Source: Oecophyllibacter saccharovorans
GTDB taxonomy: Bacteria > Pseudomonadota > Alphaproteobacteria > Acetobacterales > Acetobacteraceae
Direction: 5' to 3'
Assembly: GCF_006542375.1 (NCBI RefSeq)
Contig: NZ_CP038143.1
Span: 1,612,001-1,676,000 of the forward strand
DNA length: 64,000 nt
Positions 6,969 through 56,169 of this stretch are shown one piece after another; the first letter of the stretch is position 1, and every line of letters begins with the position of its first letter. A program made the position numbers and the translations under genes. The notes beneath the pieces were generated by a model. That model did no database searches and had not been told where the DNA came from. It saw only the letters and a program-made list of their open reading frames with translations.

Positions 6969-7081
6969 AGATGTTTATAGGTTGTTCATCTCTTTTCTCT
7001 ATGGGCGCGGTCAGGGGGTGCACACAAGGGCGCATCGGCTGCAGAGCGCTGAAAGGGGCGGGCGCTCCGCAGGTTGTGAGC

Positions 7082-7125
7082 GGGAAACTGACGGGAAACT
7101 GACGGAAAATTGACAGGAAATTGAC
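7082..7125. repeat. 11-bp tandem repeat, 4 copies
   Basis: GGGAAACTGAC, GGGAAACTGAC, GGAAAATTGAC and AGGAAATTGAC follow each other without gaps. All end in TGAC. The last two contain TTGAC and so build -35-like hexamers. One unit per helical turn means the copies would face the same side of the DNA, as in arrays of protein-binding sites, but a simple replication-slippage origin is equally possible. Confidence 0.9.
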
Positions 7126-14482: not shown

Positions 14483-15640
14483 TCAGCGGAGGATGATTTC
14501 GACGCGACGGTTCTGGGGCTCACGGGAGTTGGGGCCCGTGGCGACCAGCGGGTGGCTTTCGCCGTAGCCATGGATGTCGATGGCGGAGGCGGGGACGCCG
14601 TCACGGATCAGCTCAGCCTTGACGCTGTTGGCGCGACGCAGGGACAGACCCATGTTGTAGCGGGCACCAGCGGCGGCGGAACCGGCGTGGGAGGTGTCGG
14701 TGTAGCCGTTGACTTCGATGCGCGTGGTCTGCACGTGCGTGGAAGCCTGGGCGGCCTGGGCGACGATCTCACGTGCACGTGAGGTCAGGTTGTAGCGATC
14801 CCAGTCGAAGAACACCAGGTAGGTGCGGGCCGGGGTCGGCGCGGGCGGGATCGGGGCGACCACGACCGGGGGAGCCGGGGGAGCGGTGTCGAAAGCGTAG
14901 CGCAGGCCCAGCAGGAACTGGTGGGAGTAGCGCGAGCCGGTGTCGATACGCTGACCGGTGGAGGAGTGGTACTTGCCGATGTTCACGCCGGTATTGCTGC
15001 CCGTCTGGGCGATGAAGCGATACTGGGTGGTGACGGCCAGACCCGGGAAGCCCGTGTCCCAAGCGGCACCGACGATCGCCTGAGCGGCGAAGCCACCGTT
15101 GCCGATGGACTGGTTCATCACGCTGCCGACGTGGTTGGATTTGGTCCCGTGGATTTTGTAATCTTGATACAGGTAACCGGCACCGATACCGACGAACGGC
15201 GTGACGGGGGCGTTCATGCCGAACTGGGCGAGGTCGATGTCATACAGGACATTGACGAAACCGCCGTAGTTCTGGTTGGAGCCCGACAGACCGTGACGGC
15301 CCAGGCCGGAGTGACCGATACCGGCCTGCATGCGGCCAGCGCCCATACCCGTGCCACGGAAGGTGCCGTGGGAGTTGTAGGAGCGGCTGTAGGTGCCTTC
15401 CACTTCAAGGCGCAGACCGTTGCCGAAACCCCAACCAGCGGAGAGATAGCCGGTGTAGCCATCGCCGCTGTGCAGGGTGCCGTTGATGCCCTTGTTGGTG
15501 TGCTGGGTCATGCCCTGGGCCTGGGTGTAGTCGTAACCGCCGGCCATATCGATGTAGGGACCGGTGATCGTGGTCGCCATGGAGACGGACGGCAGAGCAG
15601 CCATCGAAGCCATGGACAGAAGAGCTGTGCGAAGACGCAT
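14483..15640 (-). CDS. OmpA-family outer-membrane protein, copy A
   Basis: 385-residue protein identical to the one at 16253-17410. A signal peptide (MRLRTALLSM... ending SVSMA) is followed by an eight-strand-type beta-barrel of about 240 residues rich in Gly, Tyr and Asn (GPYIDMAGGYDYTQAQGM). A Pro-rich hinge (VVVAPIPPAPTPAR) leads to the OmpA/MotB peptidoglycan-binding domain with VNGYTDTSHAG, NMGLSLRRANSVK and EPQNRRVEIILR. It probably links outer membrane and cell wall and may be a major surface protein. AAAGGACG lies about ten bases before the ATG. The upstream DNA has a plausible promoter at 15742-15770 and differs completely from that of copy B. Confidence 0.95.
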   Translation of the reverse strand: MRLRTALLSMASMAALPSVSMATTITGPYIDMAGGYDYTQAQGMTQHTNKGINGTLHSGDGYTGYLSAGWGFGNGLRLEVEGTYSRSYNSHGTFRGTGMGAGRMQAGIGHSGLGRHGLSGSNQNYGGFVNVLYDIDLAQFGMNAPVTPFVGIGAGYLYQDYKIHGTKSNHVGSVMNQSIGNGGFAAQAIVGAAWDTGFPGLAVTTQYRFIAQTGSNTGVNIGKYHSSTGQRIDTGSRYSHQFLLGLRYAFDTAPPAPPVVVAPIPPAPTPARTYLVFFDWDRYNLTSRAREIVAQAAQASTHVQTTRIEVNGYTDTSHAGSAAAGARYNMGLSLRRANSVKAELIRDGVPASAIDIHGYGESHPLVATGPNSREPQNRRVEIILR

Positions 15641-16252: not shown

Positions 16253-17410
16253 TCAGCGGAGGATGATTTCGACGCGACGGTTCTGGGGCTCACGGGAGTT
16301 GGGGCCCGTGGCGACCAGCGGGTGGCTTTCGCCGTAGCCATGGATGTCGATGGCGGAGGCGGGGACGCCGTCACGGATCAGCTCAGCCTTGACGCTGTTG
16401 GCGCGACGCAGGGACAGACCCATGTTGTAGCGGGCACCAGCGGCGGCGGAACCGGCGTGGGAGGTGTCGGTGTAGCCGTTGACTTCGATGCGCGTGGTCT
16501 GCACGTGCGTGGAAGCCTGGGCGGCCTGGGCAACGATCTCACGTGCACGTGAGGTCAGGTTGTAGCGATCCCAGTCGAAGAACACCAGGTAGGTGCGGGC
16601 CGGGGTCGGCGCGGGCGGGATCGGGGCGACCACGACCGGGGGAGCCGGGGGAGCGGTGTCGAAAGCGTAGCGCAGGCCCAGCAGGAACTGGTGGGAGTAG
16701 CGCGAGCCGGTGTCGATACGCTGACCGGTGGAGGAGTGGTACTTGCCGATGTTCACGCCGGTATTGCTGCCCGTCTGGGCGATGAAGCGATACTGGGTGG
16801 TGACGGCCAGACCCGGGAAGCCCGTGTCCCAAGCGGCACCGACGATCGCCTGAGCGGCGAAGCCACCGTTGCCGATGGACTGGTTCATCACGCTGCCGAC
16901 GTGGTTGGATTTGGTCCCGTGGATTTTGTAATCCTGATACAGGTAACCGGCACCGATACCGACGAACGGCGTGACGGGGGCGTTCATGCCGAACTGGGCG
17001 AGGTCGATGTCATACAGGACATTGACGAAACCGCCGTAGTTCTGGTTGGAGCCCGACAGACCGTGACGGCCCAGGCCGGAGTGACCGATACCGGCCTGCA
17101 TGCGGCCAGCGCCCATACCCGTGCCACGGAAGGTGCCGTGGGAGTTGTAGGAGCGGCTGTAGGTGCCTTCCACTTCAAGGCGCAGACCGTTGCCGAAACC
17201 CCAACCAGCGGAGAGATAGCCGGTGTAGCCATCGCCGCTGTGCAGGGTGCCGTTGATGCCCTTGTTGGTGTGCTGGGTCATGCCCTGGGCCTGGGTGTAG
17301 TCGTAACCGCCGGCCATATCGATGTAGGGACCGGTGATCGTGGTCGCCATGGAGACGGACGGCAGAGCAGCCATCGAAGCCATGGACAGAAGAGCTGTGC
17401 GAAGACGCAT
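16253..17410 (-). CDS. OmpA-family outer-membrane protein, copy B
   Basis: 385 residues, identical in protein sequence to copy A: signal peptide, Gly/Tyr-rich beta-barrel, Pro hinge and OmpA peptidoglycan-binding domain. An in-frame upstream extension of 46 codons exists, but the conserved ATG at 17410 with AAAGGACG ahead matches copy A and starts the signal peptide. Its upstream region is unrelated to copy A. It has a repeated GAATTCTGA (17462-17470 and 17472-17480) and five G(C/T)TTCC elements between 17506 and 17554. The two genes may therefore make one protein under different control. Confidence 0.95.
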   Translation of the reverse strand: MRLRTALLSMASMAALPSVSMATTITGPYIDMAGGYDYTQAQGMTQHTNKGINGTLHSGDGYTGYLSAGWGFGNGLRLEVEGTYSRSYNSHGTFRGTGMGAGRMQAGIGHSGLGRHGLSGSNQNYGGFVNVLYDIDLAQFGMNAPVTPFVGIGAGYLYQDYKIHGTKSNHVGSVMNQSIGNGGFAAQAIVGAAWDTGFPGLAVTTQYRFIAQTGSNTGVNIGKYHSSTGQRIDTGSRYSHQFLLGLRYAFDTAPPAPPVVVAPIPPAPTPARTYLVFFDWDRYNLTSRAREIVAQAAQASTHVQTTRIEVNGYTDTSHAGSAAAGARYNMGLSLRRANSVKAELIRDGVPASAIDIHGYGESHPLVATGPNSREPQNRRVEIILR

Positions 17411-24734: not shown

Positions 24735-24773
24735 GAAATATGTGGCAGAAATATCAGTCGGAAATATCAGCCG
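24735..24773. repeat. 13-bp tandem repeat, 3 copies, between DUF815 gene and mutT
   Basis: GAAATATGTGGCA, GAAATATCAGTCG and GAAATATCAGCCG start at 24735, 24748 and 24761. The unit is AT-richer than the flanks. It lies about 40 bases upstream of the mutT start on the minus strand. Confidence 0.85.
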
Positions 24774-28516: not shown

Positions 28517-30838
28517 ATGAGTCGCATGGCGCCCATCCCGTCATCGCAGCTGCCGCTGGAGATACGTTCCACCATCTCGGCCCCGCCTGATTTCCATCCC
28601 TCCATTTCAGGGCTGCTGGAGCGGATCAGGAGCTATGACCCCCAGGCCGACCTCGCCAAGATCGAGGAAGCCTACCAGCTTGCAGCCCAGGCCCATGAAG
28701 GGCAGTGCCGCGACAACGGCGACGCCTATATCACCCATCCCGTGGCCGTGGCCAACATCCTGGCGGGCTTCCGCATGGACCCGGTCTCGATCATGGTGGG
28801 CTTTCTCCATGACACGGTCGAGGATACCGGGGTTTCCAGGCAGGCGCTGGAGGAACGCTTCGGCCCGGACGTGGCTTCCATCGTCGATGGCGTCACCAAG
28901 CTCACCCGGCTGGAGCTGCAGTCGGACCGCACCAAGCAGGCCGAGAATTTCCGCAAGCTCGTCCTGGCGATGTCGCGTGACATCCGCGTTCTGATCGTCA
29001 AGCTGGCTGACCGCCTGCACAACATGCGCACCCTCCACCATGTGGAGAAGCCCGAACGCCGCCTGCGCATCGCCCGTGAAACCCTGGACATCTACGCCCC
29101 CCTGGCCGAGCGCATCGGCATGGACCGGGTCAAGACCGAGCTGCAGAACATCGCTTTCGTCAATCTGGAGCCCGAGGCCGACGCCACGATCCGCGCCCGC
29201 CTCAACTACCTGCGCGGCCAGGGCGTGGACATGATCGAGCAGATTCGCCGCGAGCTGGTCAAGCAGTGTCATGAAGCGGGGCTGACCGACGTGGAGGTGA
29301 CGGGGCGCGAGAAATCGCCCTATTCCATCTGGGAGAAGATGAAGCGCCGCAACGTGGCTTTCGAGCAGCTTTCCGATCTCATGGCCTTCCGCATCATCGT
29401 GCCCAACCGCGAGGCCTGCTATGCGGCCCTGGGCGCGGTGCACGGCGCCTATCCCATGATCGCCAGCCGTTTCAAGGACTACATCTCCACTCCCAAGGCC
29501 AACGGCTACCAGTCCCTCCATACAGGGGTGACGCTCTACCGCCCTCACAGCCAGAAGATCGAGGTGCAGATCCGCACGCCGGCCATGCATGACCTGGCTG
29601 AAAACGGCGTGGCCTCGCACTGGGCCTACAAGACCGATGCCGTGCCGGTCGAGGCGGAAGCGGCCGTGCTGTCGGAGAAGTTCGGCACCTATACCCGCAA
29701 GCTGCGCTGGGTGCAGGACCTGCTGGACATTCTCGAAGACAGCCAGGAGCCCGACGAATTCCTGGAGAACACCAAGCTTGAGCTCTACCAGGGCCAGGTC
29801 TTCTGCTTCACGCCCAAGGGCCGGCTGATCTCGCTGCCGCGCGGGGCCACGCCGGTTGATTTCGCCTATGCGGTGCACAGCCAGGTGGGCGACAGTTGCG
29901 TGGGTGCGCGCGTCAACGGGCGGCTCGTGCCCCTGCGCCACGAACTTGAGAACGGCGACCAGGTCGAGATCATGACCACGCGCGGCGGCCAGCCTTCCCC
30001 GGCCTGGGAGCGTTTCGTGGTCACCGGCAAGGCGCGCGCCCGCATCCGCCGCTTCATCGCCTCGCAGCAGCGCCAGGTCAATCTCGATACCGGCCGCACG
30101 ATGGTTGCGCGCGCCTTTCGCCAGGAGGGGGTGGACGGCTCCGACAAGGTGCTGGAGACCATTCTCAAGCCCCTGCGCCAGACCAGCATCTCCGAGCTTT
30201 ACATCAATGTCGGCGCAGGCCAGCTGGTCCCCAGGGATGTCGTGGCCGCGGCCTATCCGGAGCTGCGGCGCAAGGGCCGGCCCCCCAGGGTGGTGCCCGG
30301 GCTCTCGCCGCGCCTCTCAGAACGCATCGACCAGAAGCCGGTGCTCAAAAGCGGCACCAACGGCCGTTATGAAGGCCAGCTTTTCAAGGGAATCGGCAGC
30401 GGGATCGAAGTGCACATGGCAGGCTGCTGCCGCCCCCTGCCTGGCGACCGGGTGGTGGGCATCATCGCCCAGGGGCGCGGCGTGACGGTGCACCAGCATG
30501 ACTGCAACAACCTGGCCGCCTTCGCTGAGGCGCCCGAGCGCTTTCTCGAGGTCGACTGGAACCCCGCCGCGCTGGAGGTGGGAGGGCGTGACGCGCCGCG
30601 CTACGTGGCGCGCCTGTCGGTGGTGGCCAACAATGACCCTGGCGTGCTGGCAACCCTGACCAACCTGGCCACGCGCCATGAAGGCAGCCTGGTCAACCTG
30701 CGCATCGTCAACCGCCAGCTCGATTTCATGGAGCTCTTCGTCGATCTGGAAGTGCGCTCGCTCAAGCATCTCACTAACATCATCGGCGCCTACCGGGCTA
30801 CGGTGGAGATCATGCAGGTGGAGCGCGCGCGTGGATGA
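28517..30838 (+). CDS. spoT: Bifunctional (p)ppGpp synthetase/hydrolase (RSH)
   Basis: 773-residue RelA/SpoT homologue that makes and degrades the alarmone (p)ppGpp. Hydrolase domain: THPVAVANILAGFRMD and FLHDTVEDTG (HDXXED intact), so hydrolysis should be active. Synthetase: FEQLSDLMAFRIIV, GYQSLHTGVTL, EVQIRTPAMHDLAENGVASH. TGS domain: FCFTPKGRLISLPRGATPVDFAYAVH. A zinc-finger-like region has AGCCRPLPGD and VHQHDCNNL. ACT domain: ARLSVVANNDPGVLATLTNL. All are in the usual order. AGGGGAGGG precedes the ATG. The stop TGA (30836-30838) overlaps an ATG and opens the three-copy 14-bp repeat that leads into acpS. Confidence 0.97.
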   Translation: MSRMAPIPSSQLPLEIRSTISAPPDFHPSISGLLERIRSYDPQADLAKIEEAYQLAAQAHEGQCRDNGDAYITHPVAVANILAGFRMDPVSIMVGFLHDTVEDTGVSRQALEERFGPDVASIVDGVTKLTRLELQSDRTKQAENFRKLVLAMSRDIRVLIVKLADRLHNMRTLHHVEKPERRLRIARETLDIYAPLAERIGMDRVKTELQNIAFVNLEPEADATIRARLNYLRGQGVDMIEQIRRELVKQCHEAGLTDVEVTGREKSPYSIWEKMKRRNVAFEQLSDLMAFRIIVPNREACYAALGAVHGAYPMIASRFKDYISTPKANGYQSLHTGVTLYRPHSQKIEVQIRTPAMHDLAENGVASHWAYKTDAVPVEAEAAVLSEKFGTYTRKLRWVQDLLDILEDSQEPDEFLENTKLELYQGQVFCFTPKGRLISLPRGATPVDFAYAVHSQVGDSCVGARVNGRLVPLRHELENGDQVEIMTTRGGQPSPAWERFVVTGKARARIRRFIASQQRQVNLDTGRTMVARAFRQEGVDGSDKVLETILKPLRQTSISELYINVGAGQLVPRDVVAAAYPELRRKGRPPRVVPGLSPRLSERIDQKPVLKSGTNGRYEGQLFKGIGSGIEVHMAGCCRPLPGDRVVGIIAQGRGVTVHQHDCNNLAAFAEAPERFLEVDWNPAALEVGGRDAPRYVARLSVVANNDPGVLATLTNLATRHEGSLVNLRIVNRQLDFMELFVDLEVRSLKHLTNIIGAYRATVEIMQVERARG

Positions 30839-30875
30839 GCACAGTTCGATGAGCCCAGGTCGATGAGCACGGTTC
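30834..30875. repeat. 14-bp tandem repeat x3 carrying successive start codons, relA/acpS border
   Basis: GATGAGCACAGTTC, GATGAGCCCAGGTC and GATGAGCACGGTTC at 30834, 30848 and 30862. The first unit contains the stop of the RSH gene, the third the ATG of acpS. The ATGs at 30835 and 30849 each read five codons (MSTVR, MSPGR) and then TGA, which overlaps the next ATG by the ATGA arrangement. The result is a chain: RSH stop, micro-ORF 1, micro-ORF 2, acpS. Confidence 0.95.
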
Positions 30876-31306
30876 CTAGCCAGGGTCAGGCGGGAGAGGG
30901 GCGGGTCCTGGGCATCGGGCTCGATCTGTGCCTCTGCCCGCGGATCGGCGAGGTGATCGGCCGGCATGGCGAGCGGTTCCTGGCGCGCATTTTCACGCCG
31001 GCTGAACGCGCTTATGTCGAGCGGCTTGGCGGCCGCAACCGGACCGGCGCCTATGCCAAGCGCTGGGCGGCCAAAGAGGCCTGCGCCAAGGCCCTGGGGA
31101 CAGGCTTTACCAGGGGCGTGGCCTTCCGCGACATCGAGGTCCGGCGCAATGCGGCTGGCGCGCCGGAACTGGCCCTGAGCGGCGGGGCCCGGCAGGTGCT
31201 GGCTGCGCTGACCGCGCCGGGCCACCGGGCGCAGCTGTTTCTGAGCATGAGCGATGACGGGCCCTTTGCCATGGCGCAGGTGCTGATCCAGCAGCACGCG
31301 CTCTGA
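30863..31306 (+). CDS. acpS: Holo-[acyl-carrier-protein] synthase
   Basis: 147-residue AcpS, which transfers 4'-phosphopantetheine from CoA to acyl carrier protein. GIGLDLCLCPRI has the first Mg-binding Asp, and KRWAAKEACAKALGTG is the conserved WxxKEA motif with the second acidic ligand. VLAALTAPGHRAQLFLSMSDD completes the fold. The start is the third ATG of a three-copy 14-bp repeat; the two earlier ATGs lead to stop after five codons. There is no good Shine-Dalgarno sequence directly before it, so translation probably depends on coupling through that chain. Followed by lepB after 108 bases. The alternative, that acpS starts further in, is unlikely given GIGLDLC at residue 17. Confidence 0.95.
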   Translation: MSTVPSQGQAGEGRVLGIGLDLCLCPRIGEVIGRHGERFLARIFTPAERAYVERLGGRNRTGAYAKRWAAKEACAKALGTGFTRGVAFRDIEVRRNAAGAPELALSGGARQVLAALTAPGHRAQLFLSMSDDGPFAMAQVLIQQHAL

Positions 31307-35853: not shown

Positions 35854-36627
35854 GTGCCTTTTTCCGCCCGCCAGGACGTCCCGCAGGATGCATCGTTTTT
35901 CGATGAGGACCCGCCAGAGAACGGGGGAGTGCCGCGTCACGTCGCCATTATCATGGACGGCAACGGACGCTGGGCGCGGGCGCGCGGCCTGCCCATCGCC
36001 CAGGGACACCATGAAGGGGGGGAAGCCGTGCAGCGCTGCGTGCGCGCAGCCATCGACGCGCAGGTGCCTTATCTGACGCTTTACGCCTTTTCGTCGGAAA
36101 ACTGGCGGCGCTCGGAAGAGGAGATCGGCAACCTGACCTCCCTGCTGCAGTTCTACCTGCGCCACAAGCTTGAAGAGCTGCATTCGCTCGGGGTGCGGCT
36201 GCACATCATCGGCGAGCCCGAGCGCTTCGGTTCCACCCTGTGCCAGGAGCTGCAAATGGCCGAAGCGCGCACGTCAGCCAACACGAAACTCACCCTCTCG
36301 CTCGCCCTTTCCTATGGCGGGCGCGCCGAGATCGCGCGCGCAGCCCGCGCACTGGCCCGCAAGGCCGCAGACGGCCTGCTGCCGCCCGACAGCATCACGG
36401 AAGAACACCTGGCTTCTTCCCTGCAGACGAGCGGCATTCCCGACCCTGACGTGGTGGTCCGCACGAGCGGTGAGCACCGCCTGTCCAATTTCCTGCTCTG
36501 GCAGTCCGCTTATGCGGAGCTGGTTTTTCTCGACGTGCTGTGGCCGGATTTCAGCGAAAGGGATTTTTCGCGCGTCGTTTCCTGCTACGCCATGCGCCAG
36601 CGCCGTTTCGGAGGGCGCCCGCAGTGA
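35854..36627 (+). CDS. uppS: Undecaprenyl (isoprenyl) diphosphate synthase
   Basis: 257-residue cis-prenyltransferase that makes the C55 lipid carrier for peptidoglycan and polysaccharides. HVAIIMDGNGRWARARGLP is the signature with catalytic Asp, followed by GHHEGGEAVQRC, LTLYAFSSENWRRSEEE, LSYGGRAEIARAA, PDVVVRTSGEHRLSNFLLW and a C-terminal RFGGR. Start is the GTG at 35854, about ten bases past frr. An out-of-frame ATG overlapping the frr stop (35844) opens only a short frame. Its stop lies in GTGA (36624-36627), opening a leader frame toward cdsA. Confidence 0.95.
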   Translation: MPFSARQDVPQDASFFDEDPPENGGVPRHVAIIMDGNGRWARARGLPIAQGHHEGGEAVQRCVRAAIDAQVPYLTLYAFSSENWRRSEEEIGNLTSLLQFYLRHKLEELHSLGVRLHIIGEPERFGSTLCQELQMAEARTSANTKLTLSLALSYGGRAEIARAARALARKAADGLLPPDSITEEHLASSLQTSGIPDPDVVVRTSGEHRLSNFLLWQSAYAELVFLDVLWPDFSERDFSRVVSCYAMRQRRFGGRPQ

Positions 36628-36692
36628 GCGCCGCAGTGAACGACAGGGCCGGCAGCAACAGCGATAACAATAATATGAGCGCCAGAACATGA
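36624..36692 (+). CDS. Possible 22-codon leader ORF between uppS and cdsA
   Basis: GTG at 36624 overlaps the uppS stop (GTGA) and reads 22 codons without interruption, passing in frame through the ATG at 36675, to a TGA at 36690-36692 that overlaps the next ATG. The product would be Ala/Asn/Ser-rich with no known motif. It is probably a coupling device rather than a functional peptide. Listed with low confidence because no expression evidence can be read from sequence. Confidence 0.3.
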   Translation: MSAAVNDRAGSNSDNNNMSART

Positions 36693-36716
36693 GTGCCAGA
36701 AAATGAGTGACAGCAG
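36675..36716. repeat. 14-bp tandem repeat x3 carrying successive start codons, uppS/cdsA border
   Basis: ATGAGCGCCAGAAC, ATGAGTGCCAGAAA and ATGAGTGACAGCAG start at 36675, 36689 and 36703. The third ATG is the cdsA start. The second reads five codons (MSARK) then TGA, overlapping the third ATG (ATGA); the first likewise ends at a TGA overlapping the second. Same unit length and logic as at acpS, but a different sequence. Confidence 0.92.
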
Positions 36717-37497
36717 CCCGGCCTCCACTGCGCGCTGGGGCGACCTGCAGAAGCGGGTTCTCTCCAGCCTTGTCCTGATCCCCCTGGCATTTTTCTGCCT
36801 ATGGCGGGGCGGGTGGGTCTATGACCTCATGGTCATGGCCATCATGGCGGCCATGGTGTGGGAGGCCGAAACCCTGCTGGGCCAGGACATGCGCAGCTGG
36901 CGCGGGGCCCTGTTTCTCCTGTGGCCCGTCTGCGCAGCCCTGGTTGCCCTGCAGCATTCCTGGCTGTGCGTTGCCGTGCTTGTGGGGGTCGCCTTCATGT
37001 TCGGCAATCTGACAGGCTGGCCGATCCTGATCTCCGTGGTCGCGGGCGTCTCGCTCCTGCTGCTGCGCGCAGCACCGGAGGGTTTCTGGACCGTCCTGTT
37101 CACCATCGCCGTGGTGGTGGCCAGTGACAGCTGCGCCTATCTGACCGGCAGGGTCGTGGGCGGCCCCAAGCTGGCGCCGGCCATTTCGCCGGGCAAGACG
37201 GTATCGGGCTCGCTGGGCGGCCTGCTGGGAGCGATGGTCATGGGTGCCCTGGTGGCGCGCGCGGCGTCGGGCGCCTGGTCGCTGCAGGCGGCAGGCTGGG
37301 CCTTCGTGCTGGCGGTGGCTGCCCAGCTGGGCGACCTTGCCGAAAGCGGGTTCAAGCGCCGCCTGGGGGTCAAGGATTCAGGCACGCTCATTCCAGGGCA
37401 TGGCGGCGTGCTCGACAGGTTTGACGGCATTCTGGCGGCAGCACCCGTGGCCGCGTGCATCCTGCTGCTGCGCCATGGCCGGCCCTTCTGGCAGTAA
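36703..37497 (+). CDS. cdsA: Phosphatidate cytidylyltransferase
   Basis: 264-residue polytopic inner-membrane enzyme making CDP-diacylglycerol, the precursor of all phospholipids. KRVLSSLVLIPLAFFCLWRG opens the first of several hydrophobic helices. The C-terminal signature is split as DSCAYLTGRVVGGPKLAPAISPGKTVSGS, then LGDLAESGFKRRLGVKDSG and PGHGGVLDRFDG, containing the metal-binding Asp residues. Start is the third ATG of the 14-bp repeat; no Shine-Dalgarno sequence is present, so reinitiation from uppS through the micro-ORF chain is likely. Followed by dxr after 90 bases. Confidence 0.95.
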   Translation: MSDSSPASTARWGDLQKRVLSSLVLIPLAFFCLWRGGWVYDLMVMAIMAAMVWEAETLLGQDMRSWRGALFLLWPVCAALVALQHSWLCVAVLVGVAFMFGNLTGWPILISVVAGVSLLLLRAAPEGFWTVLFTIAVVVASDSCAYLTGRVVGGPKLAPAISPGKTVSGSLGGLLGAMVMGALVARAASGAWSLQAAGWAFVLAVAAQLGDLAESGFKRRLGVKDSGTLIPGHGGVLDRFDGILAAAPVAACILLLRHGRPFWQ

Positions 37498-56125: not shown

Positions 56126-56136
56126 AGTCCCCGGCT

Positions 56137-56169
56137 AAGACAGGCTCAAGACAGGCCCAAGACAGGCTA
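56137..56169. repeat. 11-bp tandem repeat x3 between dapE and truA
   Basis: AAGACAGGCTC, AAGACAGGCCC and AAGACAGGCTA follow without gap at 56137, 56148 and 56159. The last copy contains the truA stop codon (minus strand, 56167-56169). The unit fills almost the whole gap between the convergent genes. Confidence 0.92.

Follow-up and report, generated by a model that had tools for sequence, protein, structure and literature searches.

Together with the mycobacterial interspersed repetitive units (MIRUs), translational coupling at NTGA overlaps (-4 nt) is the closest described relative of the arrangement reported here. In NTGA-coupled pairs a word like ATGA or GTGA joins the stop codon of one gene to the start codon of the next, and the co-directional genes follow each other in a row. 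Whether native NTGA overlaps work by reinitiation or by fresh starts is debated in the accessible parts of the literature (PMC12548453, PMC10666635). In reporter constructs of native E. coli pairs coupling reportedly dropped by 40-80% at +14 nt and had nearly vanished at +38 nt (PMC10666635); a review, in the sections available, cites other studies in which coupling was seen at +25 to +40 nt (PMC12548453). An A after the start codon has been linked to frameshift proofing (PMC5850271, accessible part), which is a possible further reason for the word ATGA.

Short frames between genes are known from two other contexts. MIRU units are described as inserting at start codons, and the MIRU frame at the gene boundary becomes coupled at -4 nt spacing (PMC12548453); MIRUs occur, for example, in senX3-regX3, and units of 77 bp and 53 bp are reported (PMC2453075, PMC4213456, each as far as accessible). 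By simple arithmetic both lengths are of the type 3n-1. In addition, the available text on the axe-txe minigene describes how a very short frame influences the translation of the gene next to it (PMC8708949), and that on synthetic booster ORFs reports an effect of short frames placed before a gene on the translation of their neighbour (PMC13255528). Among the papers listed by our literature searches, none was seen to deal with tandem arrays of NTGA overlaps. We describe here two such arrays in one 64-kb stretch of DNA (the window, i.e. the whole stretch that was analysed), with emphasis on the one between uppS and cdsA.

Two stop-start arrays in the window

The uppS/cdsA region contains the following features (window coordinates):

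35854-36627, + strand: uppS (undecaprenyl diphosphate synthase; Pfam PF01255, E 1.7e-77), stop codon TGA inside GTGA
36610-36614, + strand: GGAGG, Shine-Dalgarno-like, 9 nt before GTG 36624 and within the uppS codons for FGGR
36619-36642, + strand: 12-nt direct repeat in two copies, CCGCAGTGARCG, with the GTGA copied too
36624-36692, + strand: putative first relay frame of 22 codons, GTG overlapping the uppS stop, TGA in ATGA 36689; translation VSAAVNDRAGSNSDNNNMSART, then stop
36672-36713, + strand: array of three 14-nt copies, one ATGAG per copy
36689-36706, + strand: putative second relay frame, translation MSARK, then stop; TGA in the cdsA ATGA
36703-37497, + strand: cdsA (CTP:phosphatidate cytidylyltransferase; Pfam PF01148, E 2.1e-55, domain from residue 17); translation MSDSSPASTARWGDLQKR

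The three copies of the array lie head to tail at 36672-36685, 36686-36699 and 36700-36713, with ATGAG at 36675, 36689 and 36703; copies 2 and 3 share 86% and 79% identity with copy 1 (TRF score 57). The uppS stop codon (TGA, 36625-36627) sits within GTGA at 36624, from which a frame of 22 codons with an Asn-rich stretch in its peptide runs to a stop at 36690-36692, within ATGA 36689. This second word opens the frame of five codons, MSARK, whose stop at 36704-36706 falls into ATGA 36703, the start of cdsA. The latter is the first ATG, GTG or TTG past an in-frame stop for the cdsA frame in the ORF list. The distance from the uppS stop to the cdsA start amounts to 75 nt and is bridged by the two mini-frames alone. 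A triplication with precisely this succession of frames and ATGA ends had been described in a first-pass annotation, and it proved exact to the base. When two 14-nt units are removed computationally, the frame of GTG 36624 continues directly into cdsA; gain or loss of one unit leaves the cdsA frame, read from the last ATG, unaffected by sequence. A phase-variable simple-repeat locus was rejected: the cdsA copies are just 79-86% alike and the number of units leaves the cdsA frame intact.

The second array lies upstream in the same window:

28517-30838, + strand: gene which we take, from its sequence, to be of the RelA/SpoT type; stop codon in ATGA 30835
30834-30875, + strand: array of three 14-nt copies, with the frames MSTVR and MSPGR, each closed by a stop, before acpS
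30863-31306, + strand: acpS (Pfam PF01648, E 4.3e-19)

Here the presumed RelA/SpoT-type gene stops in ATGA 30835, and the frames MSTVR and MSPGR lead on to AcpS. That both arrays have period, copy number and relay logic in common while their sequences differ, as noted before, is borne out; a common repeat was rejected, the units being unlike each other beyond ATGAG and the period.

Pairing with the anti-Shine-Dalgarno sequence was judged by duplex energies, for which the median was -4.1 kcal/mol at the genome's own genes (539 predicted genes) and -2.2 kcal/mol at random positions. Pairing is strong at GTG 36624 (-10.0 kcal/mol); it is weak at ATG 36689 (-1.9 kcal/mol) and at the cdsA ATG (-2.2 kcal/mol), which is no better than the random median. 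The acpS start is weak as well (-3.0 kcal/mol), and the first ATG before acpS reaches -5.6 kcal/mol. The first-pass annotation had seen no clear Shine-Dalgarno site at either start; this holds for the starts of cdsA and acpS but not for GTG 36624 and the first ATG before acpS, which open the two chains. The GGAGG at 36610 doubles as uppS coding sequence and thus is no proof of its use.

In the genome of 1.94 Mb (two contigs) the pattern ATGAGN{5,14}ATGAGN{5,14}ATGAG occurs twice on the forward and never on the reverse strand, and both hits are the cdsA and acpS arrays. Exact period-14 ATGA triplets gave the same count (two forward, none reverse). A period-13 triplet was found once, on the reverse strand (none forward), and this one is no tandem repeat; triplets of periods 16 and 17 were absent from this genome. 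Tandem-like two-copy pairs numbered 0 for 3n-1, 0 for 3n+1 and 1 for 3n. A mobile MIRU-like element was rejected for this genome, in which a 161-nt query around the array matched itself only.

Tandem repeats in general were counted in an 864-kb sample of the genome (41 stretches with the window included, 44.5% of the genome). It held 27 triple arrays of period 8-30, seven of them with a period of at least 11; one run of an order-3 Markov control gave 10 triple arrays, all of period 8-10. Five of the seven longer-period arrays fall into the window (7081-7113, 24735-24773, 30834-30875, 36672-36713 and 56135-56167), and the 51 kb adjoining it hold two period-12 arrays, counted without low-complexity filter. 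The window region is possibly slippage-prone, or the clustering arose by chance. At 7081-7125, near a predicted start, four 11-bp copies (CGGGAAACTGA) carry an NTGA word (CTGA or TTGA) each, and their period is also 3n-1. The pair of short tandem repeats at 14825-14884 recurs 1770 nt further on, at 16595-16654, as would be expected if a segment had been duplicated.

Phase bias at gene junctions in the family

The arrangement recurs in the family. The first family scan found arrays of four 17-bp copies at two loci and of three 14-bp copies at a third, with mini-frames of 6, 6 and 5 codons, respectively, ahead of a longer frame. We then scanned 299 family genomes, the present one included, for ATGA-ATGA-ATGA triplets at four periods. 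At least one triplet was present in 48 genomes for period 13, in 138 for period 14, in 73 for period 16 and in 78 for period 17. These raw tallies distinguish 13 from 14 clearly and 16 from 17 not; they take in arrays away from gene starts, and periods 14 and 16 are inflated by 7- and 8-bp repeats. A count against a control, as the first-pass annotation had proposed, thus came out in favour of period 14 over period 13, the former including some 7-bp repeats.

For the flanks we inspected the 30 loci per period that were returned by the search and 100 further stretches chosen by eye as repeat-like (13 for period 13, 27 for period 14, 27 for period 16 and 33 for period 17). Among the matches listed, we aimed to include every repeat-like place of period 13 or 16 and part of those of period 14 or 17, leaving aside a few that lay at the end of a contig or within 8-bp repeats. 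Arrays were dropped if unit identity outside ATGA was below 0.6, if they had sub-periods, if they lay less than 150 nt from the end of a stretch or if their context was duplicated. A credible junction was defined as a stop/start junction whose neighbouring frames both had at least 50 codons and were best by third-position GC, gene calls at the surveyed junctions being simple.

By this measure 1 of 22 tandem arrays of period 13, 13 of 34 of period 14, 1 of 31 of period 16 and 20 of 44 of period 17 lie at credible junctions. Pooled, this amounts to 33/78 for 3n-1 versus 2/53 for 3n+1 (Fisher p = 2.2e-7, on inspected flanks that were mostly hand-picked, 93 of the 131 tandem arrays coming from flanks chosen by eye). 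With frame length as the sole criterion the values were 44/78 and 9/53 (p = 5e-6). The loci given by the search yielded 10/22 versus 2/16 on their own (p = 0.04), and those chosen by eye 23/56 versus 0/37. Stricter identity cut-offs gave 28/68 versus 2/47 (0.75), 23/55 versus 2/39 (0.85) and 11/23 versus 1/22 (0.95). When no tandem structure was demanded of the search-given loci and junctions were called by length, 5/31, 10/30, 4/31 and 11/30 were obtained for periods 13, 14, 16 and 17. Arrays away from junctions numbered 21, 21, 30 and 24 in the same order, which is a rough control since periods 14 and 17 are samples. Whatever its period, a duplicated junction would retain the upstream stop in copy one and the downstream start in the final copy, and the test as such should therefore favour no frame. 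There is thus a strong phase bias at gene junctions within the family.

The 33 junction arrays come from 28 genomes. Their mini-frames have 5 codons at period 14 or 6 at period 17, and in 32 of the 33 arrays every mini-frame terminates exactly in the next ATGA; in the remaining one it ends one codon earlier, as TGATG. One of the 3n+1 junctions (L367) is an exception with a clear downstream gene. Pfam families were found in 7/7 downstream and 7/7 upstream proteins checked at 3n-1 arrays outside the window; the upstream protein of one further locus belongs to a Pfam family too, and the IalB match at L706 is just below the cut-off. The two arrays of the window had been taken to argue against pure chance and, tentatively, to share a lipid/acyl theme. 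The former view gains from the phase bias in the family, although the genome itself holds just two arrays, so that the weight comes from relatives. The lipid theme was not supported: one of seven other downstream genes is possibly lipid-related (a flavin oxidase after squalene/phytoene synthase), and the others encode RlmN (twice), O-antigen ligase, cytochrome c, a family-28 glycosyltransferase and a polysaccharide deacetylase.

Several individual loci deserve mention. The boundary between IalB and RlmN carries an ATGA array of period 14 in two genera (L317 and L706), whose units are not alike; these arrays may be old or convergent. One locus carries six 17-bp copies ahead of a 256-codon frame, in which ATGA and the period are kept and about 4 in 10 other positions differ, and represents a candidate case for constraint. 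A junction of period 15 (3n) extends the N-terminus in frame. Yet another genome has a 7-bp repeat, ATGAGCT, with 41 consecutive ATGAG words, followed by short frames.

Outside the family the data are sparser. The phylum scan, for period 14 only, found a triplet in 42 of 134 genomes, the present one included; among 30 loci examined 9 were tandem and 4 of these lay at junctions by frame length, one being the acpS array of the window. Viral contigs, with both frames of at least 50 codons and among the matches listed, gave 9/114 for 3n-1 versus 2/112 for 3n+1, which is not significant (p = 0.059). Two-copy pairs in the viral loci numbered 7 (3n-1), 3 (3n+1) and 3 (3n), several of them being the arrays that had retrieved those loci. 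The tandem stop-start build hence occurs outside the family, and the phase bias is shown within the family only.

A possible chain of terminations and restarts

A 4-nt ATGA or GTGA overlap of the uppS stop with a cdsA start is possible in 31 of 45 loci of relatives; the remaining 14 have gaps or other starts. In seven loci the overlap is at the identical codon after the UppS GRP motif as GTGA 36624. The uppS/cdsA junction is shared by Acetobacter cibinongensis and another genome of the family, which points to Acetobacteraceae as the family of the window; both are within the 45 loci and are probably one species. In one further relative uppS and cdsA are several hundred nt apart, and repeated words can be made out by eye in the intervening sequence. 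At rsh/acpS an NTGA at the stop was found in 9 of 29 relatives' loci. Of the 20 loci left, 18 have their nearest potential start at a distance of 5-16 nt, counted from the first stop-codon base. We infer that cdsA originally started at GTG 36624; judging from the sequences, the simplest history would begin with a cdsA coupled through GTGA, followed by two duplications of its start region.

We consider it probable, on the basis of these comparisons, that such arrays arise by tandem duplication of a translational-coupling site and that copies persist where the mini-frames chain, so that ribosomes could terminate and reinitiate. Local slippage would have turned a single NTGA overlap, the stop of one gene joined to the start of the next, into a head-to-tail series. 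With a period of 3n-1, the frame of each ATG ends in the TGA of the following ATGA. A ribosome finishing uppS could begin at GTG 36624 and terminate at 36690-36692, begin again at ATG 36689 and terminate at 36704-36706, and finally initiate at cdsA; the phase bias would then reflect selection for an uninterrupted hand-over, and it makes translation of the mini-frames likely. Since coupling in E. coli is nearly lost at +38 nt, the 75-nt spacer would uncouple uppS and cdsA without such a relay; given the coupling seen at +25 to +40 nt, the relay may be unnecessary. Against it speak the weak Shine-Dalgarno pairing at ATG 36689, the position of GGAGG within uppS codons, the share of flanks chosen by eye, the similar raw tallies of periods 16 and 17, the exception L367 and the viral p value of 0.059. 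The viral result makes the relay slightly less, and a neutral origin slightly more, probable.

The phase bias would equally be predicted by an interference filter without coupling, in which each ATG is initiated de novo and no ribosome is passed on; 3n-1 would be kept since ribosomes initiating upstream terminate where the following start lies instead of crossing the true start in another frame. Consistent with independent starts, pairing at the final copy is somewhat better in the 33 junction arrays (median -4.6) than in the other 96 arrays (-2.75). However, the downstream starts of the window are weak and the strong site is at GTG 36624, and published reporters depend strongly on -4 overlaps, which leaves this reading rather unlikely in our opinion. 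Ribosomes must start within the array under the relay and the interference filter alike.

Neutral microduplication, by which the arrays are slippage debris without effect and the shared period 14 a coincidence, is harder to reconcile with the junction phase bias, present also in the search-given loci alone, and we regard it as improbable. It would account for the small number of arrays in the genome, for tandem arrays of several periods outside genes, for the divergence of the copies and for the non-significant viral test; the arrays might then be young debris, and the A-rich cdsA leader may be initiated on its own. A regulatory leader peptide, i.e. the 22-codon frame sensing some signal and gating cdsA as an attenuator, is suggested by the open frame, its strong Shine-Dalgarno site and the Asn-rich stretch, and is highly improbable: other arrays have units of different sequence and hence different peptides, and the predicted fold of RNA 36600-36760 is just modestly more stable than that of shuffled sequences (z -1.93, not decisive).

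If the relay is confirmed, the arrays would show by comparison that the mini-frames found at overlaps are translated and have a role. They would also offer a route for overlapping genes to separate yet stay coupled, and ready copy-number ladders to measure the hand-over per step. The arrays may be seen as natural experiments in which one type of site was duplicated in various phases and is found at junctions mainly in the phase that keeps the hand-over. A more far-reaching version, which we hold to be quite doubtful, is a recurrent and selected relay in which the number of steps sets the fraction of ribosomes passed on. Slippage, by adding or removing copies, would then adjust how much of each neighbouring protein is made relative to the other, the proteins themselves remaining unaltered.

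Relation to known systems

The uppS/cdsA junction shares with NTGA coupling the overlap words themselves, GTGA 36624, ATGA 36689 and ATGA 36703. It differs in that two tiny frames, of 22 and 5 codons, separate the real genes and that the overlap is itself tandemly repeated; NTGA-coupled pairs overlap or lie within a few nt, whereas uppS and cdsA are 75 nt apart. Minigenes and short nonsense ORFs resemble the mini-frames in size, but the accessible texts mention no tandem chain, and the effects were measured there, whereas any effect here would be a prediction from sequence.

With MIRUs the locus has in common a short NTGA-joined frame at a gene boundary, and MIRU copies, too, can be tandem. 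The likeness extends to NTGA at both ends of the two relay frames and to the 3n-1 length of the 14-nt unit. Unlike MIRUs, which the available part of the review describes as repetitive and apparently mobile (PMC12548453), the arrays here are local and made from the site's own sequence, and their unit is 14 bp (14 and 17 bp in the surveyed relatives) instead of 77 or 53 bp. The tandem arrays are real and are not MIRUs, but they follow the same 3n-1 rule; they would represent a form of NTGA coupling that works along the lines of a MIRU.
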